Of a stretch of 64,000 nt of DNA, positions 9,920 to 54,134 are shown in pieces. Position numbers and translations under genes: made by a program. The stretch comes from Rhodamnia argentea. Lineage: Eukaryota; Streptophyta; Magnoliopsida; Myrtales; Myrtaceae. The DNA is taken from NCBI RefSeq assembly GCF_020921035.1, contig NC_063157.1:9894001-9958000 (forward strand), written 5' to 3'. Positions within the stretch are counted from its first letter, which is position 1. Each line of letters starts with the position of its first letter. The notes under the pieces were generated by a model. That model made no database searches, was not told the DNA's origin, and worked only from the letters and a program-made list of their open reading frames with translations.

Positions 9920-12900
9920 CTATTGTAAATCTTCCTTTCGTTTTGTATCAGCGTTGGGAACTTCGTTACTAATCGCAGTCACAGTAGTCTCAGTCGAACC
10001 CTCATCGGTTACGAGAAGAGGCTCCAGGGAATCTACTATGTCTCTCATAAGAGGCCTAGCTTTGGGGTTCCGGTTCAAGCAATGGTAGGCGAGCATCGCC
10101 GCTTTGTGCATTCCTTTGACGGGATAATCGCCATCCAGCCTTGGGTCCACAATGTTGAATATCTTCTTTTTCTCTTTGAGCAAAGGGAGCGCCCAATCCG
10201 TGAGGTTTTGCTCCCGTGCAGGCCTAGACTTATCTAACGATTTTCTCCCTGTAAGAAGTTCTAGAAGGACTACGCCAAAACTGTATACGTCACTCCGAGG
10301 AGTCAAATGCCCTGCAAGGAGATGGATTCTTGTGATGAAAACAAAATGCATAAAGAGATGACTTATCACAAGAGAGCAGACATATAAACTCAAGTCTTCC
10401 TGTTCATTAGAAAAAGCTCTTTTAGGAAATAAATTTGTTCAAATGCTAGTACAGACACAAACAAGATTCCATCATAAGTTAAAAGTGCAGGATATAGAAT
10501 TATGACCTGTCATTATATATTCCGGCGCAGCATATCCATATGTTCCCATTATGCGAGTGGAAACATGTGATTTGTCTCCAACAGGTCCATCTTTTGCAAG
10601 ACCGAAGTCAGAGAGCTTGGCATTGTACTCCTGTTTGGTTAAACTAGAATTGTGAGCTAAAGACACCCAAATAGGAAGCAACTATTTTTGCGTGTCTACT
10701 GAACTACCATTTTTTCTAGTCTAAGACTAAGTCTGGGATCCAAAATTCTGACTTTTAACCATGACCCAAACATTCAGTAATTCACTAGATAAAGTGGTAC
10801 AACCGAAGGATGAATTTGAGCTTTTACACGTAATTTGGTGATTTTGTAGTCCAGATGGGCATAATCTGTTGTTTGCTCTCTATCACAAACTTACAAGACA
10901 TGTTTAAAGAAAACTGAATCCTGTGAAATTTCTTCCTCCATTCAAAGTAGAGAAATTATAAAGCATTTGATCCACTGACCTGATCTAAGAGAATATTAGA
11001 CGTCTTGAAATCACGGTAGATGACAGGCTTCTCTGCTTCATGGAGGAAGGCAAGACCTTTGGCAGCACCGAATGCAATTTTCATTCTAATAGACCATGGA
11101 AGAGGAAGCAATACTCCTAACAAAAACAGAAAACAAGAAAATCAGAGAGTGCACATATATTAGGCTTCAAAGAACAATAATCAATGCCTCAACAATAATT
11201 CCTGAGAACAAAATTTTTCAAACGAACGAGCTAGAGTCTGACACTGGGGATACATAGCAGAAATCATCAAGGGGAAGAATAACCGAAAAGAATATGAGCC
11301 CTCCTTTGCCAAACAAGGCATTAATTTGAAGGGTTTCCTTTGAACGAAAGCAACCGTGAAAGAAAGATGTATATTATCCCAATATAGCGTGGCTTTTCAA
11401 GGATACCGATTATCAGAGGGCTATTGACACATTCTTTTTATTAGTTCTTCCCGAGGAACTTACATTTCAATTATATTTTACCATGAACTGACTTCTTAAG
11501 TTTCAGAAGTTGAACCTGTCCTGCACAACAATTGCTCAAGATCGAGATCTAATATTCATTTAAGTTAATTACAAGGAGAAAGATTGATCATCGAGCTGAA
11601 TCTTGAAGCTTCATAAGAAAGAGCTAACAGTAAATGAGGCATGAATAAGATTGAGGAACAAACTAAAACCTCTTTTTCCTAGTGCATCTAACATATTTCT
11701 TCCTTAGTTGGCTAAAAAAAGAAAAAAAATGCATATCTTCCTAAAATCACTTCCCTGTGTCTTATAAGAGAGAGCTAACAAAAAATGAGGCGATAATAAC
11801 ATTGAGCAATAATTGCTCTTATTCTAATGCATCCGACACATTTTCCTAAAATCACTTCTCCATGTTTTCCATAATTTGTAGAAGTATTACAAGGGACTAC
11901 TTACTTGAAAATAAGTTATGTTCCACACTTCCCCGAGCCATGTACTCGTATATCAACACTCGATGTTCATCTTCACAGCAGTACCCGATCAATTTCACCA
12001 AATTTGGATGAGAAAGCTGCCCCAGGAATATGACTTCTGCCTAAAATTCCAGAAAAGCATTAATCAAACCGACTTGAAACAGCAGGATACACTGTCATAT
12101 CCATCGAAAAGAGGTTACGGCAATTTAAATCACTTCTTAAATAAGCTAGGGAAAGGGCAAAACTTCTCACCAGCCACTCACGGTGGCCTTGATAACTGTT
12201 ATCGCCATCATGAACCTTAACAGCAACTTGGAGAGGCTCCAGCCCCTCCCGCAAATCCTCCGAGATAAACCCTTTGTACACGCTTCCAAATCCACCGCCA
12301 CCCAACACCCGATCTTGCCTGAAATTTGCAGTGATGATCCTCAGCTCACTATAGGTGAATGCAATCAGCGGATTGGAAGCTGCATCACGGCGCAGATCTT
12401 CCACTTCCTCAGGGTTTGATGGTAATTTACTTTCATCTATTTTATGTTTCACCAACGGGCTCTCGTTCTTGGGGGATTCTGAAAACAGAGCCTAACACAG
12501 TAAGCCAATACTCTGCCATGACAAAGAGAAACAGAACCAACAAATCCAAACAACTATGTGCCATATTCATCTGGGAAGAACAAGGTAAAAGTGGACGGTA
12601 AAGGATCTCACAAATCCAAACCAATATTTTGTTAATGGTGAAGGATCCTAAACTAATTATATGGAGGGGAATAACAGCAAAATTGACTGCAAAATCACCT
12701 CATGCATGCGACAAGACTCTAAAGCTTCATATGCATGCATCAAATTGAACGAAGGTGCAAAACCAACCTTCTATCTTTATACAAGCAAAAATCTCACAAG
12801 GAACATGAAATTACGATTCTAAAATGGGCAAAGAAGACAGAAAGAAAAGGTAGATTCTGTCAAGCAATGCGCAGGCTAAATATAAGATTCCACAAAGCTC

Positions 12901-13367
12901 TAAGAAGATTCACAGAGTTTGAAAAAGGCAGATCTTGCACAATTCCAATTCTGATTCCAAAAAGGACCGCCAACTTTCTAAAGGACGACGGCCAAAAATA
13001 TGGCAAATTTTAACAAATCACACGTTGCTTTATAAACTAAAGGAATAAATAAAGAAAAATGGGATAGAAAAGGATCTAATAAGACAGACATCAAAGAGAA
13101 AAACCTCAAATGAAAATGGCAAAAAAAGACTACCCGAAATGGAAAAAAATGAGGTAGGAACAAAAAAGGGACAAACAGAGTATACACCCACCAGCATCAA
13201 AGTTTATTCTCAGCTTCTATGATCAAACATTAACAGAACCCATTTGCTGCTAAAAGATTCACTTTACTTCACGAGGGAGAGAGAGAGAGATTTGAATACC
13301 AACCTGACTTAGCATTAGAGGAGACTCTGTAAATCGAAGGCTCCCATCTACACCAGCAATTTCCCAT
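9920..13367 (-). CDS. PBL16: Receptor-like cytoplasmic kinase VII, PBL16-type
   Basis: Serine/threonine kinase of the PBS1-like family, expected to be tethered to the plasma membrane and to relay receptor-kinase signals. Exons from the start: 13304-13367, 12171-12478, 11905-12040, 10980-11116, 10507-10630, 9920-10311. They sum to 387 codons (386 residues). The N-terminus MGNCWC has Gly2 for myristoylation and Cys4/Cys6 for palmitoylation. Kinase landmarks: Gly loop [12 protein letters not shown] (about 80-91), Lys109 in VAVKV, catalytic YRDFK with Asp205, SDFGLAK with Asp223, then [10 protein letters not shown]. The sequence follows Arabidopsis PBL16 (At5g56460) nearly word for word, including CWCR at the start and VKVHDGDNS. 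The tail after SLEPL is diverged, as usual in this family. A GA-repeat lies just inside intron 1. The specific receptor partner is unknown. Confidence 0.95.
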
Positions 13368-13929
13368 CACACCAAGACCCGAAGATAGTCCAGACCCAAC
13401 TCTTTTCACTGGCTGCCCATCGTCAAAATCGAAGCTTTTTTTCTCGTTCGCTCTCTCGGCTAAAACCTCGGCACCGCCATAACCGCAAGAACACCAGACA
13501 AATTGGGAAGACGCGAACTTTTTTCCTTTTGTGGGATCGTGGGGAATGAGAGGAGGAGTTGGGTGCGAGCGCTGGTGGAGAGGGAGAGAGATTCTGGGTG
13601 GCAATGATGGTGTTTTAGTGAGTGTTGAGGTGGGTGCTGAGCCTTGGCTATGGCGGAAACGGACCCCACACACGGCAACAGCAGCAGTTTCCTTTCGCGT
13701 TTCGAATTTTTCTCGCCTGTTTTTTAAGCTTCAAAGAGATTGTTTTTGTGGTTTTTTTCTTGGTTTTGTGGGCTGTCGAGATGAGTGCGCTTATAGGGCG
13801 CGTTTCAATTCCGGAGGCGACCAATCTCTTTCATCACTATCTACAAAATTTCCTTTTGTTTAGGTTGTTGGAATGGTGACCGGGTGATCATATATTTGTT
13901 AGGAAGACATATCATTAAATGATGAGTGA
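13368..13929 (-). other. PBL16: Leader and promoter region of the PBL16 gene
   Basis: Non-coding DNA upstream of the kinase start, with purine-rich stretches near 13575 on the plus strand (a pyrimidine patch on the coding strand). No TATA box was fixed. Overlapping open frames on both strands at 13269-13879 have no family similarity. Confidence 0.35.
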
Positions 13930-14480
13930 AAACCTAAAATCTTATCGTGAAGCACAGTAATTGAGTTTTGAAATTTTTAAAAAAAGGCAATCAAATCTTA
14001 AAATTAGTCGGATTGATTCAATCAAGTTCCTTTTTAACTCCATCCAAAATGCTAATATTTTTTTTATTACTGTAATAATACACGTGGCGATGATGTGGTG
14101 CCCATCAAGCATGACGTCAAAAAAATATTTAAAATTTACAAAAATTCAACCTAAATTAGGTTAAAAAAGTAAACGTGCAAACGCCGGCGAGGGTTTCTTC
14201 CTTCTTTTATAGCTGATTTGATTTTCTGAAAAAAAAAAATTATCCTTTTTAATTTATTTGATCTAATTTAAGTAAAAATTGAGAACGAAAATGATTTAAA
14301 AAAAAAACACCATGTAGGAGATAGAAAGCAACAAAAGAATATCACGTCAGCATTTTTCGTTTGTCAAGTCGGACGGGGTTAAGGAAAGGACTTTTGACAA
14401 GTTTTAAGCTTTGATTGTCATTATTAAAAATTTTAGAACTTAATCGCACTTTCGTGATACGGGATTTTCAATACATTAAT
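13930..14480. repeat. Diverged palindromic repeat, 31-bp module family
   Basis: The left half contains degenerate CTAAAATCTTATCGTGAA and AATCAAGTTC motifs. The right half carries the reverse form, TTTTAGAACTTAATCGCACT with TTTCGTGAT. This matches the inverted arrangement at 46195-46505 and 21075-21310. No coding potential. Confidence 0.5.
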
Positions 14481-22787: not shown

Positions 22788-25700
22788 ATGGCGACCACCT
22801 CTACGCAGCGATTCGGCAGACGGCTCGCCTCTTCGGTTTCTCGCCGGCGGCTCTCGTCCTCCGCCGGCGAGATCGCCGTTCAGCGGAGCCAGAACCCGTC
22901 GCTGAACCTCTGCTCCGCGATCAATCAAGCTCTCCACATCGCCCTCGACACCGACCCTCGGTGACGACTCCTCGCTCTCTGGGGCTTCGAATTCTCGTGT
23001 CGGGGCTTTTCGTTTTTGGTGTTGAATTTGAGTCGCCGGTTCTTGTTCGCTTCATTTTGGACGAGTTTCAGTGTTTTTGTATTTTTTTTTTCTATTAGTT
23101 TGATCATACAGTGATGGAGTTGAGTTTCTTCCATAAATTTCAACATGAAGAAAGTAAGGAAAAAGATTTTTTGTATGCGCAGGTCTTACCAGTCTCTGGT
23201 CCATGCAGGATGATGTTGTTCGGTCAAATGATGCGCTTTGTTTTTGTTTCTTTACCTCTGTAAAATGCTCGCAATAGGTCATCAGTCAGCTCCGGAAAAG
23301 AAATTTATGCTTAATTATGATCCCTCGGTCCCGTAGGCAGCATCAGAATTTGGATATCTAGTTAACTATAATTTCATGCGGTGAAGTCAAATTTCAGATG
23401 TGAAATAGTCTATGAATTGTGTCTCTGTTGTTAATATACGTCTGTGACACTTGTCCTTTATATGTAATTTGTCCGGATAAAGTCGAGTTAACTGCTGCTT
23501 TATTGATATTTGGGTATCCTTAAAGTCAAGCTTGCTATACTTATTCACTTCCAAGGACATTCTTGGCGTTTGATAGTGAAACTCATTGTTTGCATTTCCT
23601 ATTCAGTTCTTATGTATTTGGAGAGGATGTGAGCTTTGGCGGGGTCTTCCGTTGTACGGTGGGGTTAGCTGATCGATTTGGAAAAAGCAGGGTTTTTAAT
23701 ACCCCTCTCTGTGAGCAGGTATTCTTTGTTCAAGTGCTGTCCATGAATTATTGATTATCCTGACTTGTCAGAAGAGAAAAAGAAGTCATCCCAAGATTCT
23801 CAGCAGAAAAAAGTTGCGTCCTTAGTGGCCTGGTTGACGATGTGACTGTTTTCCGCAAAAAGGTGTCTGCTTTTGGTGATCAATAGAAAAGTATGATGTA
23901 TCTTGTCATTCTTTGTCTACCACTCTTTCTTGATCTCCTTTATAAATGAGAAATACTTCACAGATAATGTCTGGTTTGTGGCTTCTTTATCTACTACGTT
24001 TGACTGAGCATTAGCTAATTTCTGTTTATCTTACAATGTTACCAACATTGGAAACAAATTTGTAATTCTAAAACAATTCGCATGCAGGGAATTGTCGGAT
24101 TTGGTATTGGTCTAGCGGCAATGGTCAGTACTTAATCTTTTTTCCCTTATGCAATTCAGCATCGTCAAATCACAATTGTTTTTCAAAATTCCTCATTGGA
24201 TGTTTTTCTATTCATACCACATTTAGGGAAATAGGGCAATCGCGGAAATTCAGTTTGCAGATTACATTTATCCTGCTTTTGATCAGGTATTCATTCCATC
24301 TGGCAAATGTTGTATTGCCGCACGTTTAGATTTTCAGTAACAGATGCTCTTGTTTATGTAGATTGTCAATGAAGCTGCTAAGTTCAGATATCGTAGTGGG
24401 AACCAGTTTAACTGTGGAGGTATAGCATCATCAGTATTTGATGGTCAAATGAGATATTCTTTTACCAGCTGTCGCTGCTGAGGTTTGATGTGATATTCTC
24501 AGGCTTAACAATAAGAGCTCCTTATGGAGCAGTAGGACATGGGGGACATTATCATTCTCAATCCCCAGAAGCATTCTTCTGTCATGTCCCTGGTATCAAA
24601 GTATGGTTTGTGTTCCCAGAATCTGGATTGCTCCTTTCAGATTCCCTTTTTGCTGTCAAATCTTTCCATTTCTTCTGGGAGTCTGAAGGAAGAGACATTT
24701 ATTTTGCGAGTATTGACCATTACATGAAGAACATGCACGTACCATTTCATTGTTTGGTCATAATTGCTTCTTATGGTTTCTCCCGAATGACTGTATGTGA
24801 GGCAGAAAAGGATACAAGAAACCTAAGAAGTGTAGTCTGTTTCCCTGATTGAAAAATTCTTTATATGAGCAGGTCTAGTTCTGGAGACTGATTAATTGAA
24901 TGACGTGCAACCTATCTAGATGTTTTTCTAATATTAATAACTGAGGCAAATCTTAAGTTCTTAAAAAGCACCAGTGTTCTACTTTAAAATCTCACTAAGG
25001 GAGCATCTTTCGACTTCAATGGTTGAGGAATTTGGTGTGTATGATGATTTCCTTTTTAAGTGCATCGGAGCTATTTATGTGATTGGTTTTTCAAAGATAA
25101 GAGCTGATCAAATTTGCATCTCTTGAGGACAGATTATGGTTAGTTAAATTGTCCATGGTTTGGCCATAAAAGTTATTCGAGATGTTCACTGAAATTCAGA
25201 AAAAAACCTCAATGGAACTTATACTCTTTTATTACTCCATTATGTTGTGGTTTAGACACCGCCCGGCACCTTTCTTAACGATTCTTCTTGTAGGTGGTCA
25301 TCCCTCGAAGCCCGAGTCAAGCAAAAGGACTATTAATCTCCTGCATACGTGATCCAAATCCTATTGTCTTTTTCGAACCTAAGGTATTCTGTTTTTTACT
25401 CTAAGCTCGATGACTCGATAACTCTGTCTAACTTTAAGAACTTATTTTTCGGTGGATCCAGTGGCTGTATCGTTTGGCTGTTGAAGAGGTTCCTGAACAT
25501 GATTATATGTTGCCGTTGTCAGAGGCTGAGGTACTCTTCTTTAAGCCTATGCAGTCAAAGACTTTAGATTCTAACAAAGTTCCAATGTGGTAGGTGATTC
25601 GTGAAGGCACTGATATAACATTGGTTGGATGGGGAGCTCAGCTTTCGATCATGGAAGAAGCCTGCCTTGATGCTGAAAACGTAAGTTTATTCCAGATTAT

Positions 25701-26720
25701 TAAATACTGATCTATCTTCCTGCTGCTGCGGGCCATCTTGAATGTAATTTCAAAGTGCAGAAAGTCTGGAGCTGAACATAATTTTTTTTTTGTTCAGCAT
25801 TGAAAGTGATGATTCCGACTCCACTTTTCCAACGTCTCGTTTCTTGGAGTTTTCTGGAAAGATGAATGGCATTCTTGTGACCGATTTCCAAATATATTTG
25901 TTTGTCACAATGAATGCTGATAGATATCATGCCATTACATTTTCTACAGCTTGAGCAGTACTTGTGGTGTGTAATGTATGTGTCATCTACATATTGATGT
26001 TGTCAAACCCCTAGGTGTCCAGACTCCAGATACTGCCACACTTTAGTGACTATCATCTGTTAAAGGGCCTCAAGATAGGTTGATTGTTCTTAGTCATCTA
26101 ATGTCCTCAAACTCATATTATCAAGAAACTTTTTAGGATGGGATCTCTTGTGAACTGATAGACCTCAAAACTCTAATACCCTGGGATAAGGAGACAGTGG
26201 AGGCATCTGTCAGGAAAACTGGAAGACTTCTGGTACATTCTGCTTTCCGCTTTCCCTCTGATAACTCATGAGATTATTGAAGTAAGTCAAATCCCTATTT
26301 GCAGATTAGTCATGAAGCTCCTGTAACTGGAGGTTTTGGTGCTGAAATCTCTGCTTCAATTGTTGAAAGATGCTTCTTAAGAGTGAGCATGAAGATATTT
26401 GTCTTTTTCCCATTCTTATTTCTATGGCAATACTGGTTCAAGGATATTCTCTTTCTTCTTATGGCTAAATGAGAAGTCTTCTAGTCCCTAAAAGCTGTAT
26501 TTGTTTTGCAGCTAGAAGCCCCAGTTGCCAGAATCTGTGGTCTGGACACACCCTTTCCCCTTGTTTTCGAACCATTCTATTTGCCCACCAAAAATAAGGT
26601 GATCAGATTTTGTCTTGTAGCGTTGCCTTCACATGAGGATAATGAAGTATTTGCTGATTTTGTGACCTTTTGTTCTGGATGCAGATACTGGATGCCATAA
26701 AATCAACTGTAAATTACTAA
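22788..26720 (+). CDS. BCDHB: Branched-chain 2-oxoacid dehydrogenase E1 beta subunit
   Basis: Beta subunit of the thiamine-dependent E1 component, which decarboxylates the oxoacids of Leu, Ile and Val in mitochondria. Thirteen exons: 22788-22960, 23607-23718, 24088-24123, 24227-24286, 24362-24419, 24503-24600, 25294-25383, 25462-25530, 25594-25680, 26137-26232, 26305-26382, 26512-26598, 26685-26720. They total 360 codons including stop (359 residues), close to Arabidopsis BCDHB1/DIN4. The N-terminus is Arg/Ser-rich and free of acidic residues for about 25 positions, as in a mitochondrial presequence. Family blocks seen: [79 protein letters not shown] and the C-terminal [11 protein letters not shown]. 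The first donor (CG|GTGACG) is weak but keeps the frame. In Arabidopsis the gene lies next to TBP, as it does here. Confidence 0.96.
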
Positions 26721-29221
26721 TGGGTACTTGACTCTCATTGTTTACTCCAGTCATGCCTTGATATGATGTGCATAACAAATTGTGACTCGCAAAATTTCAG
26801 AAACAAGTTGTTCGATACTTCATGCCTGAAGATTTAACTGTATCAACCCCTGCTATATGTGAGAGTCCATGGAGGATTTTTTGGGGTAGTACATGGCTGG
26901 GATAAGGAGTTTGTCTTTCCTCGCCTAGGGTGTAATAGACCCGTCAAACTTGACAAGTTGGATGGAGTTTACGAAAGGACTCGATTGCATCAACTTAACA
27001 AGTTTTAGAATTAAATGCACTTTTTAAAAAATCTTACGACTCATTTGCACTTTCGTGATTCGTTTCATTTTCTTCCATGGGACAGTAATATCATTGTCAG
27101 CCTAGAATGGACGAGGATTATCATTAGATTATGTCAAAAGGGCCCGTAAGAGACCCACTTCAGTACTCTTGAACCAAGTTGAAACTCAGACCCAAAAAAA
27201 AAAAAAAAAAAAAACTAAGTTGAAACAGTGAGAAGAGAATCCTGAGGATTAGTAACCAAGTGAAGGAGCTCGCTCAAGTGCAAAATCCAGGCTTGCAAAA
27301 TTTTCAATCAATTTGGTCACATTACTATTGCCTACACAAATTACGTAGCTTCCAAGTTCGCACTAAGATAATTTTCCACATTTTGCTACTACAAATAAGT
27401 GTTGTTTTCTACCTGCAGTGGATAGATTCCGAGCCGGCATGATTACCTCAGTCCTAGGGAGTCAATTCTGCCGTCCTCTTTCATGAGAGCTTCCGACAGC
27501 GGGCGATTCTTGTTGGAGTAGTTGCCATCGAAATAATTATCGTGATTGGTGAGTGAAAAAGTACGTTATGTATGGACGATACGGCCAACGCGATATAACC
27601 GTCCAACCATATTACCCGTGCCGTATGTGTCGCAATCAACTTCTCAAATCTCCATTTGAATCTCGAAGCTCCTCTTTCCAACGACTGCTTTCCTCACATG
27701 CCAACCTAGCGTTGGGCTACCACCGAATAAGACACTACCTAGGACGAGGGGTGAGATTAGATTCGGTTGGAGACGGCTACATTCAGAACCTGAACTGAAT
27801 CTTTTTTCACCCGCGCTTGTCTGCTTCAGCCTACTTACTCGATCTTACTTCTATAAACAGAACTTTTCTACTCCAACCTACTCTGAATTTGGACGCAATT
27901 CACAAGATCAAGTTCCGGCGTACTCAGCGCATTTCTTTCTCTTGAAATCATAATCTTTTGCCTTCCCAAGACCTAAGAAGCACTTCGACTGCTTGATACG
28001 GCAACATTACGCAGTCAAAATCAAATTCGGGCGATAATGCAAAATTATCCTTATACCACCACCATTGAGACTCGAGAGTGATCCTTACCCATAATGTTTC
28101 TTGAAATGAATACACACTTATAAAATACCAAAGCTATTCGACCAAAAAAAAAGAAAATACCAAAACTAGGAGAAGAATATAGCCAGAGAGCAAACTCACT
28201 TTGCTGTTCTTTTAAGCAGTGACAGTCAAGAAAGTCAACTCTGACACCATTAATCTTTTTTAGTATTTCTCATTGGTGACATTAAGAGGAAGCTGTAATT
28301 TTGCACACTGGATGCAAGCAAACAAAACGATACTATTTTCTTCCAAGATACATGCACATAAACAACTAGCCTTTCTTGCTCTCCCTTAATTTATCTTCAA
28401 TTGGAAAGGGCCTCGACAGCAATATCCTCCATTATTTACAACTCAACCCAGTCTCCGCCCTCGATGCCAACCTTTCCCACCCCCCACGACTGCTTGAATC
28501 ATGTCAATATGATCTCGACATCAGATATCTGTCACCAAATAAAAATCAACAGAGCTCAGATGCTAAAAGCATAAAACCGCAAGAGCCATAGAACATAAGC
28601 TTCATGATCTTTCTCTATGTCATACTCCTTTGTTGGATACTTCAGACATGTCCTCAAGTTTACAAAGATCCATAACAAGTACAAGCAGCAACGAGAAAGG
28701 AACTTCAAAAATCAATCTACAATGGGATATCACATACTACAATTTGGAGCCAGAAACAGACTCTTTGATTAATATTACCAAAATCACCACATCCCATACG
28801 AATAGAGAAAAGAAGTAAAATTGTTCAATACAACCTCCACAAATTCTGAAACTTGAGACTACTCACAAATTGAAGATCTTCAATACCCTATATACATACG
28901 TGTGTTTGTTCATATGCATCCGTTCACTTCCGTATGAATATGTGCATGCATGTTCATGTGGAAAGTATATCATTGTGCACGAATGCATGCATGTGTTCTT
29001 GACTTCAGATATCATATCCTTATGTTTGCAGCTGCTGCATATATAGCTGCAAAACATAGGCAAGGCTAAGGGGCAAACTTCATCTACTACCAGATAAAGC
29101 CCGGAGATGCAAATGACACATGACCCTTTAGTTATGCCAAAAGCCACACATTTACAGAGCAAATGAAAACTGGAAATGAAGAACAAAGAATGCGGCAGCA
29201 TCAAAAGAATAAGAGCTGTAC
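26721..29221. other. Tail-to-tail interval between BCKDH and TBP genes
   Basis: Holds the 3' UTRs of both convergent genes. A half copy of the 31-bp module repeat lies at 26985-27065 and an A-run at 27193-27215. Several short open frames (for example 28376-28591 and 28630-28818 plus) have no family match. No third gene was recognised. Confidence 0.4.
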
Positions 29222-32200
29222 CATTGCTGGATTTTCCTGAACTCGGTGAGCACAGGATATATGTTCTCAAAGGCAGTGTATGTCTCTTCTCGCACCTGGA
29301 TAATCAAATAGCATGAGCGAGGCTAATATGACTCCAGAAAAACCCGCAGAACCAAAGATATCTACATAATCACCTTTGCCCCAGTGAGGACAATTTTTCC
29401 TGACACAAAGATTAGCAGCACGATTTTTGGTTGTTTCATTCGATATATCAAGCCAGGGAACAGCTCTGGTTCATACTGCCACATAAAAAATAAAAAAAAG
29501 ACGCATCAACCAACAGTTCCAAGAAATGACTTGTGACAAATTGCAGATTATCTTCCAGTGACAACAACTTTAATATAGAAAACCAGCAATTCTAAGGCCA
29601 AAAAAGAGCAGAGGGCTCCTGACATCATAAGCGGTGAGATGTGCAGCTGCAACTTACACTTGAGAAGGCACCATGTGAATATGCAAGACCTTCAAGCCTG
29701 ATAGGGAATTTCACATCACAAGAACCCACGATATTTTGAATTTTGAAATCCTGGCAAAGAGAAGCACCATAAATTAACTCAGTAACTATAGGCAGTCAAC
29801 CACGATATTCTGTCACAGAAATAGGGAGAGACATATGTACCTTAAATTTAGCCGGGAATCCGAGTTTCTGAATGATTCGAGCATACTGGCAGGAAGAATA
29901 AAAAGTTAGCCTACAAATGATCATTGTCTTGAATTGCATTGTTGTTTCACTCCAAAACAAGATACAAGTTGCAGCATCGACTGAACTTATGGCTTCATGA
30001 ATATATTGGTAATTTGTTCTCTTATTCATTTACAAAGGAATAATGCTTGTAACAAATCCAAAGACTAACTACTTCTTATGACACCACCACATCTAATTTT
30101 TCCATTCCCATTTATTTACAGCTACAAAGATATTGCAGTTCTATAGAAAACCAATTAATTGTGAACCGAACCAATTAATTGTGAACCGAGACTTTGTACG
30201 ATGGTGCTATTGGTCAGAGGCCATACACCATTCCACTTGTCAAGTTACCTTTCGTGCTGCTAACTTCGATTGTTGTTCACTCTTGGCTCCAGTACAAACC
30301 TGAAAAGCATAGTGCACTCAGTAAGCAAAGATAACAACCCTAAAGAGAAGCAATAAGTAGACCTAAGCTATCCTCAAGATGTCAAGGAGAAAGTGCACAC
30401 ATCTTTCAAATAGAGATGACGACGATTAAATGTCGATACAAAGCTTCTCATGATTATGAGATGTGTTGTTGGCCTCGTAATTATCTGCCCGTTTGCATTT
30501 CCTGTGTCTTCTAATGATAATGAAGTGCAGACTGCTATCCATAGAGACAGATAGTGGCTATACGTAGTAGGTGGCGGAAGGACGAAGAGATATATAGAGG
30601 TGATTGCTTGCTATCTTTTCAATCGGGGAATACTCAAAATTAAATGACTAAATCAATTTAGAAAAATTAACTCCGGCATACAAAATCAAGTTGATATATT
30701 TCTATGAATTCAAAAATGACATGGAGATAATTTTCAGCTGCCAACAGAAACAACTCAGGAGTCTTGTCTAACATGACTTACCATTTTCCCTGAAGCAAAT
30801 ATCAATGCTGTTGTTTTTGGCTCCCTTATTCTCATAATTACAGCAGCAAAACGCTGCAAAAGATACACATTTGGAAATGTTAATCCACAGAAGTACAAGA
30901 AAGTTTATTTATTGTGTCACCTAAATAATTAACAATATTAGATCTTAAGGAACTAGGTCAGAAACAATTAACAGAGAGAAAGATGCCTAGGTTAAATACC
31001 TTAGGATTATACTCAGCATTTCGAGCTTGCAAAGCAATTGCCTTAAGATCCAATTTGCAGTCCAAATTCACTGTAGAGACTATGTTCCTGGATAAGAAAC
31101 ACAACACTACTTATTCTCTTTGGACTGTGTGTTAAGAATAAGCATTGTTCTGATTACTCTCATAGAACAAAGTAAAGCATCTAAATCATCTCGTGAAGGG
31201 TAGATCATAGTTTCCCAGGCAAGACAATATCACCCACTCATTGCCATGAGACAATCATGTCCCCATGTTTATGCCAAACAAGCAGGCAAACAATGCAAAG
31301 GGAAAAATATAGGGCCACGTTACACCTTCCATTAGCATTATATGGGAAAAGGCAAGGTTTGGACATATATCCACTTTTTCAAAAGAATAGATCTTAGAGC
31401 TACTCACACCTATCGATGCATACATGAATTGTTACTAGTTTAAAACCATGACAGCGCCACCCAAACTACTCATGCATGCAAGCATGCACATATTTGGTGA
31501 ATTTACTCAAGCAATAAAAGTGGCCTCCCCTTTGTGCATGAGATAATTGACAAGTCATTCTTCAGTTGTCGTTGGTTACCAGCAGACATGCTTTCCTACG
31601 ACCTCTACTTAGTGTAGCCCTTGCATAATCTCGAGAATCCAGCCAATATGACAAATAATGTATGACACAACTATGAAAGATCTGAGGAAGGGCGAATTAA
31701 AGTTTGGGAAATGGAGCTGCTCCATTCATCTATCTAAATACTCTAGGGCACAAAATAAGCATTTATAAACCCAGTTTGTATCTGAGAAAAAATACTTTCG
31801 TGAAGCTGCTTCAGCTTCCAAAGAGCTACATCAGGTTCAAAAGAATGTACCACAAGCATTCAAAAGTACAAAATACCATAGGTGGAAGATCTGCAGTGAT
31901 TCAAAACTTAGTTTTCAAGAACTAACCAAGGGTATTTTGCAGCTCCGATTTTCCAACTTTTATGGGTTTCTCTCAACTCTATCGGTCTTGAAATACCAAA
32001 ACATCTTGAAGAAATTCTACTTTCATCCTTGAAAATTAATCTTATAAAGTAGATCAAAGTGTTAAGCTCATTCACTTCCTTAATCATTCTATCACATTAA
32101 AACATCACTTCCCAATCCATACAAGATGACGTATAACGATCCAACACCGACAGCTACAGCAACGTCAAACAAACGGGCTCTCAGTAAACCAGAGAATGAG

Positions 32201-32306
32201 AAATCGCAGGCGCGAGATGCGAGACTCACTGAAGAGTAGGAACGATTCCTGAAGGATGCTTGGACAGATCGACCGGTTGGCTTCCCTCCAAGCCCTGATC
32301 CGCCAT
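29222..32306 (-). CDS. TBP: TATA-box-binding protein
   Basis: General transcription factor that binds TATA elements within TFIID and serves RNA polymerases I, II and III. Exons from the start: 32230-32306, 31000-31087, 30782-30853, 30249-30299, 29841-29885, 29658-29750, 29374-29475, then 29222-29295. They give the two pseudo-repeats of the saddle core, one starting [14 protein letters not shown] and the other [14 protein letters not shown], and the signatures [29 protein letters not shown] and [18 protein letters not shown]. The N-terminal tail is short ([20 protein letters not shown]), as in other plant TBPs. The protein is about 200 residues. The last exon reaches RKIQQ plus two bases at a GT (29221-29220). 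Plant TBPs often end QQW, but the terminal exon was not found. Reading on without splicing adds about 18 residues and stops at 29152. A leader intron is likely, with an acceptor near 32360. Confidence 0.95.
30149..30188. repeat. Perfect 20-bp tandem duplication in TBP intron
   Basis: The unit AACCAATTAATTGTGAACCG occurs twice back to back with no mismatch, in the intron between TBP exons 4 and 5. It is likely a recent slippage event or a footprint of a transposon. Confidence 0.85.
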
Positions 32307-42938: not shown

Positions 42939-42947
42939 TAACAACGA
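42939..42947. repeat. Target-site duplication, left copy
   Basis: TAACAACGA, identical to 45216-45224. The 9-bp length is the hallmark of Mutator-superfamily insertion. Confidence 0.88.
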
Positions 42948-43970
42948 GGGAAAAATTCAATTAAGGGCCGTAAGGCCCTTCACTTTCTCAATTAAGGGCC
43001 CGAAGTAGATCTTGTTTCAAATAAGGGCTTGAAGTGCCCTTTTTATTTCAAAGAAGGGCATGACCAAAGGGTGTTTTCGTTTTTTACTTTTTTTTTTTTT
43101 TTGCAATTTCTTCCTTTTTTTTGCTTTCCTTTTCTTTTTTCTTTTTCTTTCTCCTCTCTCCTCTCCTCTCCTCTCCTCCCGTTCCCCCAGCCATCGAAAG
43201 AAAGAAGAAATTGAGCAAGCAGAATTTCTGCTTGATGTCCACGGAAATCGACTTCTCTTTTCAAAAGAAAGATCAGCAGTATTTGACGAATAGAACCATC
43301 GTGTGCGTCTTTTCCTTTCTTTACGTTCCTAGACTCAACTTTTGCAAAGCAGGTTAAAAACATATGCAGAGAAGAAATGAAACAAGAAATTGAGAACAAA
43401 AAGTCAGCGCAAATGGTGAATGAGAGTTAGGGAAGATGATGATCCTAGGGCAGCTCAAGATGTTAACAGTTCCAAGTAAAAGAGCCAAAATGGTTCAAGG
43501 TCTCGCCATTGAAGTTTTTTTTTTTTAAAGGAAGTATATTATATCTTTTAGGAGTACATCTGCAGAGGCAGGTGAGACCCCATTCAATGCTTTGGCTGGA
43601 TTTTCATGGCCCAAAGACAGAGACTCCTGAAACTTGAGAGGCCACCGAGACTCCTGAAACTTGGAAAAAGTAATGGAATGTAGTAACAATGTGATCGGAC
43701 TTTGAGGCGTGTAATCACTCTCTTTTAGGATCAATTTGCCCTACAAAGTTGCTATAGGTTTCTGGCAAATTCCCTTCAGGATACAACAAAGTCCCATTGA
43801 GATTACTGGATTCCAAAAACTCTCTACGAAACAATGAAGATTGGCTGTCTCTCTTTTGAAAGAAAACAAAAGAATAAAAGTTGTCCACGGAAATTGAACA
43901 GAATTGTCATTTATATAATACTAATGGAACACACCTCTTGGTGTCCAAACCGCCCATGTACGAACGCACC

Positions 43971-44067
43971 TATTCATGTCCGAAACATCGCATTTATTCA
44001 TGTCCGTAACATTACACCAATTCATGTCCGAAACATTACCATTCGGACATGACTGTTCATGTCCGAA
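43971..44067. repeat. Tandem TTCATGTCCG block with a hairpin
   Basis: Three direct copies of ATTCATGTCCGAAACATT-like units spaced about 24 bp apart. An inverted copy, TTCGGACATGA (44042-44052), and TCATGTCCGAA (44057-44067) follow with a 4-base gap and could form a perfect 11-bp stem. Located inside the Mutator-like element. Confidence 0.8.
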
Positions 44068-44562
44068 CAGTCATGATTAATAATATAGAATATAAATATA
44101 AAAAAAATTGATTTCGAAAAATAAAAAATAATAATTAAGGTTTATTTCCGTCCGCGGCGTGCAAAGTGGTCAAAATCGCGCACCCGCACGCGGGTATAGT
44201 GGGGTCTAGCCCACTTGCCTATTTCTTTATTCGAAAGACTATTGTGGCCTTTATAATTAATAAAGAGACTTTGCACCCTTCTTTCTATCCTATGTGGAAT
44301 TGAAAAGGCAGCTTTTGTTTTAACAAACAAACTTCAACACCTTCCTCGGTGACCCTTGACTTCTCCGCAAAGACATTGATGTTGCTGTTGCTGTGCCTCA
44401 ACCCATCACAACGCCTGTCAGGGCATGCGCGGGCGAGGTGTGGCAAGAAGAGCTGTTCATGAGCCACTTCTCTGCGTCGTCCCACTTTGAAGGGAAGTCC
44501 CTTCTGGACAAGTTTTTTCCCACGCTGAAGCTGAAAAAAGGCCTACCAGGGGTTGAAGGAGC

Positions 44563-44967
44563 CTAAAGCAGAGTCGCGGTGGTCTCTGTCCTCCTGCTCG
44601 TGACCGAGCTCGCTTCGTCTCTCCTCCTCTGCCTTGAAACCTCAAGAACGCCACCACCCTCTGTCGGGTTGCTGTTGCTGGTGTTGTCATAGCTAATGGT
44701 TCCCACAACAGGGAATGACTTGACGAACTCAGACGTCTCTCTGAGGTTGGTGGAGCTGCCCAGTGGAGTCATCTCTGTGCCTGCATCTCTGTGGTGGACC
44801 TCTGTGCCTGCATCTTTCATTGTTTCAATAGCTGAGGTCCTGAACAAGAAGCCTTCTCCGTAGGGTAGCCCTCGCCAGACCAGGGCCCGACGCCGACCCA
44901 GGCGAGGGGTCGGCTGAGGGTCGCCCGCCAGACGACGGCGAGGGCGGCCGCTGCCTGAGGCCAGCAA
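44563..44967 (-). pseudogene. Possible captured gene fragment inside the MULE
   Basis: A minus-strand open stretch of 134 codons contains AGTEVHHRDAGTEMTPLGSS, which recalls the (R/K)D-x-GTEMTP motif of plant remorin-related and similar unnamed proteins. The segment is GC-richer than its surroundings. No complete gene structure is visible. It may be a host exon picked up by the element, as in Pack-MULEs, or chance. The similarity is from memory and was not searched. Confidence 0.35.
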
Positions 44968-45215
44968 TGGCTGGGGGAGGGGAGGAGTGGGGAGGAGAGG
45001 AGAGGGAAAGGAAAAGAAAAAAGAAAAGGAAAAGCAAAACAGAACAAGAAAAAAAGGGAGAAAATTGCAAAAAGAGTAAATGACGGAAATGCCCTTCGGT
45101 TAGGTCCTTCTTTGAAATAAATGGGGCACTTCAGGCCCTTATTTAAAATAAGATCCACTTCGGATCCTTAAATGAAAAAACGAGAACACTTGAAGCACTT
45201 AATTAAAATTTTCCC

Positions 45216-45224
45216 TAACAACGA
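45216..45224. repeat. Target-site duplication, right copy
   Basis: TAACAACGA, identical to the left copy and abutting the AATTTTCCC end of the element. Confidence 0.88.
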
Positions 45225-46505: not shown

Positions 46506-46559
46506 TATCCCTCTGAGCTCTGATCAAAATATAAATATAAACATATATATATCTCAATT

Positions 46560-46789: not shown

Positions 46790-49700
46790 ATGGACCAGGT
46801 CAACGGCTTCGTCGGAGGATTAGGGGGAGAGGCGGGGGCAGAGAGGAGGCCGAAGACGAAGATCGTCTGCACCCTCGGCCCCGCGTCCAGGTCCGTGCCC
46901 ATGGTCGAGAAGCTCCTGCGGGCCGGCATGAACGTCGCTCGCTTCAACTTCTCCCACGGCTCCCACGAGTACCACCAGGAGACGCTCGACAACCTCCGCC
47001 AGGCCATGGACAACACCGGTATCCTCTGCGCCGTCATGCTCGATACCAAGGTAACGCTTGGATCTCGGGCTTTTCGCGTTTTTGTGTTGGATTTGGTTCC
47101 TGATTTGCGACTGCGGGAGGCTGTTCTTGGGACGGTAACCCAGCGGTTTGCAGATGATTTATCGACTTGATATGCATATGGGTTTGGATTGGACGGGTTG
47201 AGGATTTGCTGGATTATGCATGTGATTCGGTGTGTTGATTGATTGTGTTGCGTTTTGTGCTGCTGCTTGTCATGTTCAGGCAGCAACTCCAATCCTCCTT
47301 TGTGTGATAGTTCTGTGATTTCGCTGGCGAAGATCCAAGTTAAAAAATTTGGTTTGACTTGTATATGTACAGTTACAGTGGGAAAATCTAGACGAAGACT
47401 GTTGTATTGATGGCCCCATGATCTTCGAGAGTAGGTTTGCATTATGAGCTGCTCTGCAAGTTGATAGTTATTTTTTCTACTTTTTCTTGTGTACAGTTTT
47501 TCAACTTAGTACCTTGTGCCTTGAGGTGATAGTCGCAATGGTTGAAGATAGGAAAGTCCTTCTCTTTGTTTCTGTTTTAACAAAGTGTTCCTTTTAAAGG
47601 TGGGAAATCCTTGAATTGCACTAGTAAAATTCTTTGGAAAGAATTTAATTAGGAGCCATTCCAGGTGAAAATCTCTTCACTGCAATATTTGATGCTCTGA
47701 CATTTACATTATACACTTTTGTGTTGTAATAAATTCAATTTCAAGTCCACTTATTCTTTTATTAGGTAAATGAAGCAAGCAATCTCTCCACAAACCACAG
47801 TAGTGCTTGTTTTTTCTGCTCTTGTGGCTTATTTGAGAAGTTTCCTAATGATTCATCTGACGTGTGTGGTGTCCACACACTCAGAATAAATGATTTTTTT
47901 TTTTTTTGGGAGAGTGAGAGAACGATCTCCCTTTTTGTTAATGTTGCTGACATAGAGCTTACTTGGTGTCAGACAAGTATCATATGTGAGCCAAACAAAA
48001 TGTCATGCGAATGGGCAAAAAGCTTTTTCTCACTCAAAGTACAAGTGACCTAGATGTTATTTAGCCAACAAACCCACAGTTCGACTTTTGGAAGTTCTGC
48101 AAAACTTGCTTACTTTCAGAAGCTTTAGAAGAAATTGCTAATTGTAAGAACGGAATTTACTTGGTGTAACAGTTGAATGACACAGGATTAACATCTGTGA
48201 ACTTCTCATTGTCCACAGTAAGTAAAACTGAACTTTGATGTTTGAAAATAGGAAAATGCATCTTGCTGGGATTCATAGATGCGCTTTCTTCAGGATGCAA
48301 CTTCTTGTATGAAATACAGTCTTGTTGAAATCTCCTTTTAGCTGGAAATTTATGTCGACCTCAGTAAACCAATCTCACTTGTAGCATCTATTTATGCCCA
48401 ATTAGAAGCCCAAGATACATTTTGCTTTCGGTAAACTATTCGTTTCGATGTGTTCCATTGTCTCTTGCTTAAAGCTTCACAAACAATCCCATTGTCAAGA
48501 TTATCCATAATCCTCCTTTCTGTCGATTTCTGTTGACGTGAGATGTTGGCGTGTTTATCTCTCCCATTAGGATTTTCTTTGCGTATGCTAATGTCACCAC
48601 TATCGTCTAAATGCATAACTCTCTGTTAAGACAAACATGAATGAAATTCTGATTGCTAACGTTCAATGCTGTAGGGGCCAGAGATTCGAACTGGATTTCT
48701 GAAGGATGGCAAGCCCATACAATTGAAGCAGGGTCATGAGATCATGATATCTACTGACTATAGTATGAAGGGGGATGAGAATATGATTTGCATGAGCTAC
48801 AAAAAGTTGGCTGAGGATCTAAAGCCCGGAAGTGTCATTCTTTGCGCTGATGGGACAATCTCATTTACTGTATTGTCCTGTGACAAAGAACAGGGTTTAG
48901 TTCATTGTCGCTGTGAGAACTCTGCAGTTCTCGGTGAGAGAAAGAATGTGAATCTTCCTGGTGTTATCGTGGACCTTCCAACATTGACCGAGAAAGACAA
49001 AGAAGATATCTTGCAATGGGGTGTTCCCAATAACATTGACATGATTGCTCTTTCCTTCGTTAGGAAAGGTTCAGACCTTGTGGAGGTACGGAAGTTGCTT
49101 GGAAAGCACTCGAAGAGCATTCTTCTTATGTCAAAGGTATGATGAATCTGTGCCTTAATCTGGATCAATGACTTCTGTTGTCAATGCTGCTGCTAACATG
49201 CATTTATCCTGAAGCAATTTATAAAGTTGTTTTCTCCTATCTAAACCGACAAGTGACAGCTAGGAAAATAGGTACTTATTTGGGCTAGTATGAATGCTGT
49301 ATTAAGTGATTCAAATTTTAAATGACGAATACATGGATAGGAAAATGCATTTCTGAAGATTTGAATTTTTTCAAATGTATAAGTACAGCAGTATTAGATC
49401 TTCTTTGGGTTTGGGGTATCCTAGCAGCCAATGAGTTGCAATTTATAAGATTAGTCAAGGTTTCCATTCTGAACATTGGTTGGTCCCTTTTTGTGAATGA
49501 CATTTGGTAGGTCGAGAATCAAGAAGGTGTTGCAAATTTCGATGACATTCTTGCAAATTCTGATGCATTTATGGTGGCTCGTGGTGACCTTGGCATGGAA
49601 ATCCCAATTGAGAAGATATTCCTTGCGCAAAAAGTGATGATCTACAAGTGCAACATTCAAGGTAAGCCGGTGGTCACAGCCACACAGATGCTTGAATCCA

Positions 49701-50326
49701 TGATAAAATCACCCCGGCCGACGAGAGCGGAAGCTACTGATGTTGCTAATGCCGTCCTTGATGGCAGCGACTGTGTGATGCTAAGTGGTGAAACGGCTGC
49801 AGGAGCTTATCCAGATCTTGCAGTTCGCACTATGGCAAAAATTTGCTTAGAAGCAGAGAGCACTATTAACTATGGAGATGTTTTTAAACGGATAATGGAA
49901 CACTCACCAGTTCCCATGAGCCCATTGGAGAGCCTGGCTTCTTCTGCTGTTAGAACTGCCAACTCTGCTAGAGCAGCTCTTATACTGGTTCTTACTAGAG
50001 GAGGAAGTACTGCAAAACTGGTGGCTAAGTACAGGCCAGGCATGCCCATATTGTCAGTTGTTGTCCCTGAGATCATCACAACAGATTCATTCGACTGGTT
50101 GTGCAGTGACGAGGCTCCAGCAAGGCATAGCCTTATATTCAGGGGGTTGGTGCCTGTTTTATGTGCAGGATCTTCCAGGGCTTCTTCTGCAGAAACTACA
50201 GAAGAAGCCATTGAGTTTGCACTTCAGCTCGCCAAGGCTAAAGGACTGTGCAAGAATGGAGATTCCGTGGTGGCTCTGCATCGTGTTGGAAATGCTTCAG
50301 TGATCAAGATCTTGACTGTGAAATAG
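46790..50326 (+). CDS. Pyruvate kinase, cytosolic isozyme
   Basis: Catalyses phosphoenolpyruvate + ADP to pyruvate + ATP, the last step of glycolysis. Three exons: 46790-47050, 48675-49136 and 49511-50326, giving 513 codons (512 residues). This is the usual cytosolic length, and there is no plastid transit peptide: the start MDQVNGFVGG leads directly to KTKIVCTLGPASRS. Visible landmarks are the NFSHGSH metal/substrate region (53-59), DTKGPEIRTG at the first junction, the active-site signature with SKVENQEG around Lys241/Glu243 (a codon-boundary intron falls between SK and VENQEG), MVARGDLGMEIP (262 onward), VTATQMLESM and the SGETAAG loop. The C-terminal domain ends KILTVK. The closest recalled relative is Arabidopsis At5g56350, next to PSL4 and the RING gene. 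Intron 1 is long (1.6 kb). Confidence 0.96.
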
Positions 50327-51005
50327 TGGGTGGCACGGCAATGTTCAATTTTGCATTTTCTTGCGATTTTTGAGAAAGGATCTTTACTCTGGAATATCTA
50401 GAGATAGTAGTCGATACTGCTTTGTGTGATTCCTTATTGGAGTATCATAATCTCAAAATGTTATGGTGAAACACAAGATGCTCAGACTTGTGAATGAATT
50501 ATTTTTGGAGACTTTCTGCTATATTTCAGATGGGGTCCATCTGTTTGATGAAGAACATGGGATCCTATTGTTTGTCAACTGTTCTCTTTTTATTGTAGTA
50601 GGATTCCACTAGCGTCAGTTTACTTTGGTTCTTGTGTTACTGTTTCTTATGCTTTATTATGCTGTGATATAATATGGTTATGCCTATAGTATTTGCGGTG
50701 TCAGGGGAGTGTAGTATAGTGTTCCTAGCCGTGTATGCTGCAGGCCATGGCGAATTATGTAATTTTAATGAAACAAAGTCTTCGCATTAGTAGTAGATTG
50801 ATTCCTTTGGAGTGAAGATAAATTTTGTTAAATTGATATGGTGGTTTTAGATTGAATCAAAAAGTTAAAATGATGAGGGAAACTTGAAATGTGAACCGCA
50901 AGATCTCCTTTATAGCCTGCGTGTGTAAAGAGAGAAAATATGTGGAGCTTTTACTACTGATCCACCGTCTTGAAACAGAAGAAAAGGAACGATATCTGGC
51001 TCTTT

Positions 51006-51068
51006 AATTGTTCAAACCGTAGGAAACTTTGCCACTTCAATTGTTCAAACCGTAGGAAACTTTGCCAC
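51006..51068. repeat. 33-bp tandem duplication
   Basis: The unit beginning AATTGTTCAAACCGTAGG at 51006 recurs at 51039. The second copy is identical over its 30 bp. Confidence 0.85.
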
Positions 51069-52304
51069 AAAGCTCGGCATCGGTCTTAGACCTCAAGTTT
51101 GTCCATGCGATCTTCATTGTCACCCGGAATTGAATATATCTCACCTTGAACTTTGCAATGGTCGACCCATCAAGCAGATCTAGAGAGGGACCAGCAATCA
51201 ACGACGCGGTTCGTGGTGTGCATCGATGTCTCAGTCAAGACCGGGCGTAGGCGAACTCCTTCCCAAATAATTTAGAAAGCAATCAACGACGCATGATGTG
51301 TTTGCGTTTGGTGATAAAGCCTCAAAGTCCACATCAATTTTGATACTCTCCAATGAAGAAACGACGATGAGGCAGTTGAGATTGTCAACTTCTGACTGTC
51401 ATCCACGACAAGCCTAAAAAAGAGAAAAACGACTCGTGGATCTCATTAAGATTCGACGCCTTCTCTTCTGTGAATTACATGGGAAAGAGTCAGATACCAC
51501 ATGGGGAGCAGTTTCTGAAACCGTTCCGTCTTAGTTCTGGTTTTTGGTCCACCTCATATGATGTTGGCTCCACTCCTCCCAGCTCAAACCAATTCAGACA
51601 AGCATAACATCCAAAACCCCCATGAACACTGTAAAGGATTCCCCGCGAAAGCCGGCCGGGGATTGCGATGCGATGGTCGAGTAAGGAGAACCAAAAGTGT
51701 CGAGAATCGGCTGAAACTGCATTAACCTTGCCTTAAAGTGACCAGAGCTAGAATCTGTGTTTCATGATGGACGTACCCAATTTAATGCAAGCGTACTACT
51801 GCGCTTCGCATGAGCAGGCTCTGACACAAAGTGTACTACGAATGTTCATTTTCTAGAATAGATACAATCATGCTAGCTGACACCTTTTCAAGTCCCGGCT
51901 TAACGAAAAAACCCACTAAAGAGCTCTTCTGCATCTTATTAAAACTTTTGACACAAGATTACTTTGGCTTGGCTTTAGGCCAAACAAGAGTACTCCAATG
52001 GTTACAACTGAAGTCGAGCCTCGACGTACTCATTACAGACTCTTTACCTAGTCCGGGTGGAAACTTGGAACATAACTCCTTCAGACCTTGGGGAGCTGAC
52101 AATCAAAAACCTATCTTTACTAATGCCTTCATAAGCAGAAGGTCCGGCTCATACAAGCAGGAACTCTGGCCAAATTCCCTGTCAATACAACGTTCACACT
52201 TCACAACCGAGAGTGTGCTTCGATCTAGGAAGTAAGACAAGCTTCGGAACAGTTGCAATCAAAAGAGACACATTGAGGTGAAAAGATCCTGCTTCTGCAC
52301 AAAC

Positions 52305-52505
52305 CTTGCAACAGAGATCAGAAATTGACCCACCTTAAATGTGTTGCATGCATCCTGTTATTCCTGCCATGCTCTCCTCTTTTACCTTCTATTACAACAT
52401 TCAAATCTTGTCTGCAACAGAGATTTAGAAATTGACCCACCTTAGATGCATTACGGGCATCCCGTTATACCTACTATGCTCACTGCCTTCGCCTTCTGTA
52501 AGATC
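52305..52505. repeat. Diverged tandem duplication, about 107-bp unit
   Basis: Two copies begin GCAACAGAGAT and AGAAATTGACCCACCTTA. They continue with matching words (ATGC-T, GCATCC-GTTAT-CCT, ATGCTC and CCTTCT), the second copy starting near 52416. Many substitutions separate them. Confidence 0.65.
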
Positions 52506-53030
52506 AAGGTACATTAACCTGTTTTTTAACCTCCATCTCCGTCACGGGGTCTCCTCTTCTTCATTGGAGCACTGAAGGGTGAAAGCTGGCATCCCCACAT
52601 ATCAGAACCACTTCAATGAGCTTTTCTCGTCTTATGATCAGTGGCCTGTACCAAGTTCTCCCCGAACTTCCCCTACATAGTTTCAGTTTCTACTTTCTAT
52701 CATTGGAGAGGTTAACAGGGACCCCCTCCCTCGAAGCATCATAAATTTGAAAATGAAAAAAGGTAACAGATTGACAGCAATGCCAATCACAGTCGCAGTA
52801 GCTGTTTTATCATCACACGAGGATGTGCAAATCCTTCTCGTTTCTGTTTTAAGAAGCACAAGAGAAAACTACAGATCTCCAACAAATGGGAAAAAAATAG
52901 CAATATCTTCTTGGAAAATCCGACATAAGCAAGTACAACACTATGTACAGACGAAATGCAAGACTGCCCCAACAAGAAGCCAAGGAAGATACACCAGAAC
53001 TAGTAAGAATTGTTCACAATTCTCACCGGT

Positions 53031-54134
53031 TTAAAATGAAGCATCTTCACGTTCGTTCGATGATGAACCTGATGGTGACGAGGTAGAATTTCCTCCCCCA
53101 GAATGTGATCCAGAGTTGGAAGAAAACAAACCACTGAAAGGCCATAGGAATGAAAACCTCCTGCCATTTTCATTTCTCTGGTTCCCTTCTCCTTCTTCAC
53201 CGCTACCTTGAGCGCTCTCACTCTCACTCTCCCTCTCACCTGTGTCATTTCCGTTCCTTGACACATCAGCATCAGTCTTTGATTCATCAATAGGCAACTG
53301 AAACCGGCAAACCGGGCAAGAACTATGGAGCTCAAGCCAAGGCAAGATACAGCCAGTATGAAACCTATGCTTACATGGCATCTCTTTAGCTTCCGCTCCA
53401 ATCTGGAGATCATCCAAGCATACTGAACACTGCACATTCTCCGTCATCTTCACAGTTGGCATAGCTTCAATGGCCTCCTTTCTGGCGGGTGGTGTACCAT
53501 GTCCATTGGGATCGTTTTCCGCCAAATGTTGCAACAGCAAATCCAAACCGGGGCCGACGAAATAATCACCCAGCGAGCCAATTAGATTTGAGTTCTGGCT
53601 TGAATAATCCGATGAACCCTGAAGGACTATAGTTTGATTAAATGGATTTATCAAAATGACACGCTCTCTTTCCCTATGCCCGTCCCTATCTCCATCTCTG
53701 TCTCTAGCAGTACCTGCATTTTCTGATTCAGATGCAATCCCAGCTCTAGCGTCTCGCAACAATCGCAAGATAGTGGCTGAGCTTCTCCTCCTCCTACGAA
53801 TTATGGATTCAATTTCCCGATCCAACTCAGTGTCACCGCCGTGACGTGACTCACCCTCGTCGGTATCATCATCTTCATCTTCAAACCCCAAGCGTCTGAA
53901 CCTACGTCTTCGACGGGTATTGCCCATCATGCCAAGCAAAATCGGCGCCCAAAGAGAGAGGGCACGGTCTGACCCAAAGTCACCATCAGAGTCCTGTGTA
54001 TCCCTCGCGGTGGAGCTCATCTCTTCAATGAAACCGCTTTCACAGTACGGGCACTTGATCTCTTCTTCCAGAATGGGATTCACCATTCGGGAGCACATGT
54101 GGCACCAATATCTTGCTGCCATCGCTTCCTCCAT
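53031..54134 (-). CDS. RING-H2 E3 ubiquitin ligase with N-terminal zinc ribbon
   Basis: Predicted ubiquitin ligase that would pair an E2 with unknown targets. One coding exon, 368 codons (367 residues). Start chosen at the Met of MEEAMAARYWCHMC, because the family begins this way; the frame stays open 30 codons upstream, but that part reads like leader. The N-terminal ribbon has CHMC (Cys11, Cys14) and CPYC (Cys28, Cys31). A basic/acidic low-complexity middle (RRRRRFRR, EDEDDD, RDRDGDRDGHRERER) is followed by a conserved NPFNQTIVLQGS block and DYFVGPGLDLLLQHLAENDP. The RING-H2 (236-276) has Cys236/Cys239, CKHRFH and CPVC in C3H2C3 order. The tail is Ser/Gly-rich. This matches the plant RING1/CIP8-like group; Arabidopsis At5g56340 (annotated ATCRT1) is the positional match. 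A leader intron with an acceptor near 54165 is plausible. Confidence 0.93.
   Translation of the reverse strand: MEEAMAARYWCHMCSRMVNPILEEEIKCPYCESGFIEEMSSTARDTQDSDGDFGSDRALSLWAPILLGMMGNTRRRRRFRRLGFEDEDDDTDEGESRHGGDTELDREIESIIRRRRRSSATILRLLRDARAGIASESENAGTARDRDGDRDGHRERERVILINPFNQTIVLQGSSDYSSQNSNLIGSLGDYFVGPGLDLLLQHLAENDPNGHGTPPARKEAIEAMPTVKMTENVQCSVCLDDLQIGAEAKEMPCKHRFHTGCILPWLELHSSCPVCRFQLPIDESKTDADVSRNGNDTGERESESESAQGSGEEGEGNQRNENGRRFSFLWPFSGLFSSNSGSHSGGGNSTSSPSGSSSNEREDASF

Follow-up and report, generated by a model that had tools for sequence, protein, structure and literature searches.

Gene content of the window

The window analysed here is a stretch of 64,000 nucleotides of the Rhodamnia argentea genome (C8:9894001-9958000; 346.66 Mb in 74 contigs), and our subject is a block of six genes lying between window positions 9920 and 54134. 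The original prediction, made from the letters of this DNA, had listed them as PBL16, BCKDH E1-beta, TBP, PSL4, pyruvate kinase (PK) and RING, and had proposed that this order is ancestral and was broken up in Arabidopsis by complementary gene loss after genome duplication. Exons were delimited by tblastn and joined into models for five of the genes, which were compared with Pfam, the RING gene being tested as one open frame; the BCKDH and TBP models were also searched against PDB sequences. Exon reading together with the Pfam and PDB sequence searches confirmed all six genes in the claimed order.

The block opens with a PBL16-like receptor-like cytoplasmic kinase on the minus strand (9920-13367; Pfam kinase, 4.4e-45), the first exon of which starts MGNCWCRW; PBL16 is the name that we presume for this gene and for Arabidopsis At5g56460. 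Among the best 128 of 2145 candidates in its own genome, only two kinase matches exceeded 72% identity; they reach 88% and 94% and fall within the window. The BCKDH E1-beta subunit follows on the plus strand (22788-26720; Pfam transketolase domains, 6.5e-35 and 9.3e-33). Its top PDB matches were 2j9f/1dtw, the branched-chain (2-oxoisovalerate) dehydrogenase beta subunit (5.6e-144), and its matches elsewhere in the genome reached just 38-47% identity (16 of 16 candidates scored). The TATA-binding protein (TBP) gene lies on the minus strand (29152-32306, its exact end being uncertain; PF00352, 1.4e-58), with a top PDB match to 1qn3 (TFIID-1/TATA-box-binding protein, 2.8e-108), which we take to be Arabidopsis TBP1. 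As predicted, BCKDH and TBP are convergent, tail to tail, with open-frame ends ~2.4 kb apart.

The other half of the block comprises two genes on the plus strand and one on the minus strand. The glucosidase II beta subunit, PSL4-like, extends from 34091 to ~41922 (+; PF12999, 3.5e-34; PF13015, 1.1e-18), and its protein probably ends in HDEL, judging from a last open frame assigned to it by inference. A cytosolic-type PK (46790-50326, +; PF00224, 1.3e-115) comes next, followed by a BTL4/CRT1-like RING-H2 protein with a zinc ribbon, encoded in a single open frame (53031-54134, -; PF13639, 8.5e-14; PF14369, 2.8e-13).

A collinear segment on C6

Searches of the same genome with RING and PK placed the best second copies of both on C6, ~2 kb apart, the C6 RING copy being 71% identical to that of the window and the C-terminal PK exon 87% identical. 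The matches listed for RING, for the kinase and for WRKY all lie on contigs C1-C11. At C6:23666-23681 kb, PSL4(+), PK(+) and RING(-) stand in the same order and on the same strands as in the window, as in a collinear homoeolog. No remnant of BCKDH, TBP or PBL16 was detected in C6:23640001-23690000 (best E 1.5), and genome-wide searches gave no BCKDH or TBP match on C6 among those listed.

Three further gene families, ECT, Cpn60-beta and WRKY2/WRKY10, were chosen for search as presumed neighbours of the block in Arabidopsis, the choice of ECT being recorded before its search, and two of the three were found near the block on C6. In the YTH search of the genome, about six loci accounted for the 11 matches. 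Two tandem YTH/ECT genes were among them; their YTH exons occupy C6:23652518-23659582, and they lie 6-7 kb upstream of PSL4. For Cpn60, scoring of 87 out of 107 candidates gave 77 matches, and one of these is a gene at C6:23626329-23628975, ~37 kb upstream of PSL4. Its top PDB match is Chaperonin 60B1 (2.3e-149), for which reason we take it as the plastid beta type; the next-best locus for it in this genome lies on C5 and is 63-73% identical. In the window, no remnant of ECT or Cpn60-beta was detected (best E 0.15). Retention in the two segments is reciprocal: of the two, C8 alone yielded PBL16, BCKDH and TBP, C6 alone yielded Cpn60-beta and the two tandem ECT genes, and both kept PSL4, PK and RING.

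Two side observations concern this part of C6. Three stretches compared between the members of the ECT pair (C6:23651300-23660200) showed 63%, 73% and 92% identity. Between the pair and PSL4, at the expected place of BCKDH and TBP, there are unassigned open frames at C6:23664295-23665327 (-) that match neither gene.

Synonymous divergence (dS) between C8 and C6, estimated with NG86 on alignments that may have picked up some intronic codons where exons end, was 1.11 for PSL4 (494 codons), 1.17 for PK (517 codons) and 1.51 for RING (366 codons). The bootstrap intervals of the three gene pairs overlap, so that their dS values are similar, and the concatenated dS was 1.22 (1.04-1.46). YN00 and maximum-likelihood (ML) estimates were 0.98 and 1.10 for PSL4, 1.13 and 1.00 for PK, and 1.06 and 1.24 for RING, respectively. 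The available passages of a study of Rhodomyrtus and relatives, with an assembly of 11 pseudochromosomes, give a Myrtaceae Ks peak of ~1.25 by the same method (PMC10022486). As 1.22 lies near this value, the C6/C8 pair may stem from the event behind the Myrtaceae peak; taken alone, a dS of 1.22 does not show that the duplication preceded the divergence from Arabidopsis.

A second TBP copy lies on C7. The TBP pair is more diverged than the C8/C6 pairs, with an NG86 dS of 2.73 and a lower bound of 1.35 (an ML value of 0.21 was judged implausible and was not used), and the C7 copy is older or faster-evolving. The C7 locus holds a TBP gene with full-length matches and, ~36 kb away, a partial TBP copy (C7:9334595-9335412 and C7:9370389-9373529). 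A Cpn60-family match lies 40 kb from the C7 TBP, at C7:9410500-9411700, spread over several frames; it reads as a putative chaperonin CCT-theta and is probably a broken duplicate. The idea that C7 might hold yet another copy of the block, older than the rest, was rejected, as no further block marker accompanies TBP in the 200 kb examined there and the Cpn60-family fragment presumably represents CCT-theta.

Arabidopsis counterparts and a joint gene order

Locus numbers in Arabidopsis follow chromosome order and were used to compare the neighbourhoods. We take At1g55520 to be TBP2, and we assume At1g55530 and At3g13430 to be the nearest relatives of At5g56340. In the passages of the cited papers available to us, the genes on chromosome 5 are At5g56360 (GCSII beta/psl4; PMC5045529), At5g56350 (cPK2, the same identifier being given for cPK3 too; PMC7154858), At5g56340 (BTL4; PMC3738576) and At5g56460 (putative protein kinase; PMC6791687). 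For chromosome 3, a table lists At3g13420 and At3g13430 (zinc finger), three unknown-protein genes, At3g13440 (methyltransferase), At3g13445 (TATA-binding protein), At3g13450 (alpha-keto acid dehydrogenase E1) and At3g13460 (ECT2) (PMC3914955, Table 1). Elsewhere, At1g55510 and At3g13450 are given as branched-chain E1 (PMC4010797), ECT2 as At3g13460 and ECT4 as At1g55500 (PMC8796052), At1g55530 and At3g13430 as RING/U-box (PMC5440562), and Cpn60-beta as At1g55490, At3g13470 and At5g56500, numbered two ways in the source (PMC5780408).

ATCRT1 is another printed name for AT5G56340. The printed identifiers At5g56360, 56350, 56340 and 56460 agree with PSL4, PK, RING and the kinase, as the original prediction had it for chromosome 5. 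Its second set, an adjacent BCKDH and TBP on chromosomes 1 and 3, holds in print for chromosome 3 (At3g13445/13450); for chromosome 1, BCKDH (At1g55510) is printed and TBP2 (At1g55520) is presumed. By locus number, the chromosome 5 set and the chromosome 1/3 sets are each flanked by Cpn60-beta on one side and by a RING gene on the other. With these shared flanks, which the original prediction had not noted, the sets resemble duplicates of a single neighbourhood more than two unrelated ones.

The two Rhodamnia segments and those of Arabidopsis chromosomes 5, 1 and 3 (At5, At1 and At3) all fit the order CPN60b-{PBL16,ECT}-BCKDH-TBP-PSL4-PK-RING; two linear orders fit the five segments and differ only in the placement of PBL16 and ECT. 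When the markers of four segments (C8, C6, At5 and At1) were shuffled, mutually consistent orders arose in 24 of 100,000 trials, a figure to be read as a measure of fit and no strict probability, since the marker set was selected afterwards. The markers had been picked as shared ones, with the ECT pair counted once, At3 omitted for having the same content as At1, and WRKY, MTP and non-shared Arabidopsis genes left out; the Arabidopsis orders came from identifiers, some of them presumed. Pairwise, 6601 of 20,000 shuffles fitted for C8-C6, 6671 of 20,000 for C8-At1 and 1652 of 20,000 for C8-At5. Order is uninformative for C8-C6 and likewise for C8-At1, and segment pairs alone are weak. Chance co-location, or a cluster kept by function, has next to no probability: the six block genes have unrelated roles, PSL4-PK-RING recurs on C6 in the same order and on the same strands, and the joint order consistency arose in only the 24 shuffles mentioned.

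Taken together, we consider the window to be one of the homoeologs descended from an ancient collinear block that was duplicated and then differentially thinned in each lineage (probability roughly 0.87). An ancestral block Cpn60b-{PBL16, ECT}-BCKDHb-TBP-PSL4-PK-RING would have been duplicated in the lineage of Rhodamnia, giving the C8 window and the C6 segment, and in that of Arabidopsis, giving the segments on chromosome 5 and on chromosomes 1/3, after which each copy would have lost a different subset of genes. We infer that the duplications were of whole genomes and separate events in the two lineages, whose common ancestor would already have had this order. The predicted ancestral order with complementary loss finds support in C6, where ECT lies 6-7 kb from PSL4-PK-RING and BCKDH, TBP and PBL16 were not found. 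As C6 joins ECT, a neighbour of BCKDH in Arabidopsis, to PSL4-PK-RING, the two sets were most likely joined already before the C6/C8 duplication.

A lineage-specific translocation might instead have put BCKDH-TBP between PBL16 and PSL4, making the six-gene order secondary. C6 does lack BCKDH and TBP at that point, as expected if C8 gained them after the duplication. However, ECT and Cpn60-beta lie on the same side of PSL4 on C6, and the Arabidopsis gene printed next to BCKDH is ECT2; moreover, BCKDH-TBP would have had to land between anchors that flank the same genes in Arabidopsis, which takes an extra event. As judged by one diagnostic gene family, the two sets do not come together solely in the window, and the position of ECT beside PSL4-PK-RING on C6, combined with the common order across segments, makes a translocation confined to the window improbable.

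The two sets might also have fused before the C6/C8 duplication and after the divergence from Arabidopsis. Both C8 and C6 would then descend from the fused ancestor, and a dS of 1.22 is compatible with such timing. Against this, the Arabidopsis segments share a Cpn60-beta end and a RING end, which makes a fusion between matching anchors unnecessary, and we regard this history as very improbable.

Several points weigh against an anciently collinear, differentially thinned block. ECT, Cpn60-beta and WRKY were all missing from their predicted places on C8 (none of the three), and among the 150 of 188 WRKY candidates scored none lay near RING on C6 or C8. ECT is the sole diagnostic family of the chromosome 1/3 set on C6, because Cpn60-beta occurs near all three Arabidopsis segments, and a distant ECT gene (51-70% identity) at 0.12 Mb on C8 means that ECT genes occur elsewhere too. 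A kinase match of 72% at C6:24111072, 430 kb off, the nearest of those listed on C6 and accompanied by similar matches at several other places, may be a moved PBL16 copy. Around the C7 TBP, C7:9260001-9460000 held no BCKDH, PBL16, PSL4, PK, RING, ECT or Cpn60-beta match. Finally, collinearity was examined within this local block, and the Arabidopsis order comes from locus numbers, some of them presumed.

Under differential thinning, the unit of loss is a further question. In each of the five segments BCKDH and TBP are jointly kept or jointly absent, and the same holds for PSL4 and PK, as observed for C8 and C6, taken from the printed table for At3 and presumed for At1 and At5. It is conceivable, if rather doubtful, that such runs were kept or lost because several genes were deleted at once or because the convergent BCKDH-TBP pair is under constraint, not gene by gene, and that the order predates the core-eudicot triplication.

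Other features of the window and relation to known synteny

An element with 233-nt imperfect inverted-repeat arms (42947-45216; arms 71% complementary in the repeat search) sits between PSL4 and PK in the window. It spans 2.3 kb, the PSL4-PK gap on C6 is ~1.7 kb, and one of its arms has five short matches in the C7 stretch examined. A WRKY gene of at least two exons (DGYEWRKYGQK... and a zinc-finger part) occupies the left end of the window (1605-2174, -), on the opposite side from the Arabidopsis-based expectation. We take WRKY2/WRKY10 to be a neighbour of the block in Arabidopsis, and we discarded it as a shared marker: among the best 150 of 188 candidates, the nearest WRKY on C6 was ~566 kb from RING, and the only nearby one on C8 was the window gene just described, across the block from RING. 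Beyond RING, a cation-efflux gene, presumably MTP12-like, lies in one open frame (57177-59807, +), which is the sole full-length high-identity match genome-wide; a search of the genome gave no cation-efflux match beside the C6 RING. An AT-rich repeat of ~76 nt has four dispersed copies (window 13953, 21103, 46263 and 55894), the other three being 64-71% identical to the reference copy.

A literature search found no paper naming at least three of the six block identifiers or at least four of the six gene names, and a search of the poplar literature by identifier did not reveal which genes adjoin the RING gene Potri.013G060500. The process itself is familiar: genome-wide reconstructions of rosid and eudicot gene order and fractionation address the same process in the passages available (PMC5322550, PMC9194900). 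Prunus has been compared for synteny with a pseudo-ancestral Arabidopsis genome, the available passages of that study making no mention of the present block (PMC1479338).

The block is an ordinary and clean example of the fractionation that is well known to follow genome duplication, and no new phenomenon. It would restore a local stretch of ancestral gene order that is hidden when Arabidopsis is viewed by itself, and it indicates that a homoeolog in the same genome can replace an outgroup when fractionation is to be told from translocation. The principle is more than two decades old, and the gain lies in a worked example and in anchors by which orthology can be assigned for TBP, BCKDH-beta, ECT and PSL4. 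The tomato-Arabidopsis comparison of Ku et al. 2000 is said, from its title, to describe a synteny network arising from large-scale duplication and selective gene loss. In contrast to that comparison, the order here is also tested by a second, independently thinned homoeolog within the same non-Arabidopsis genome.

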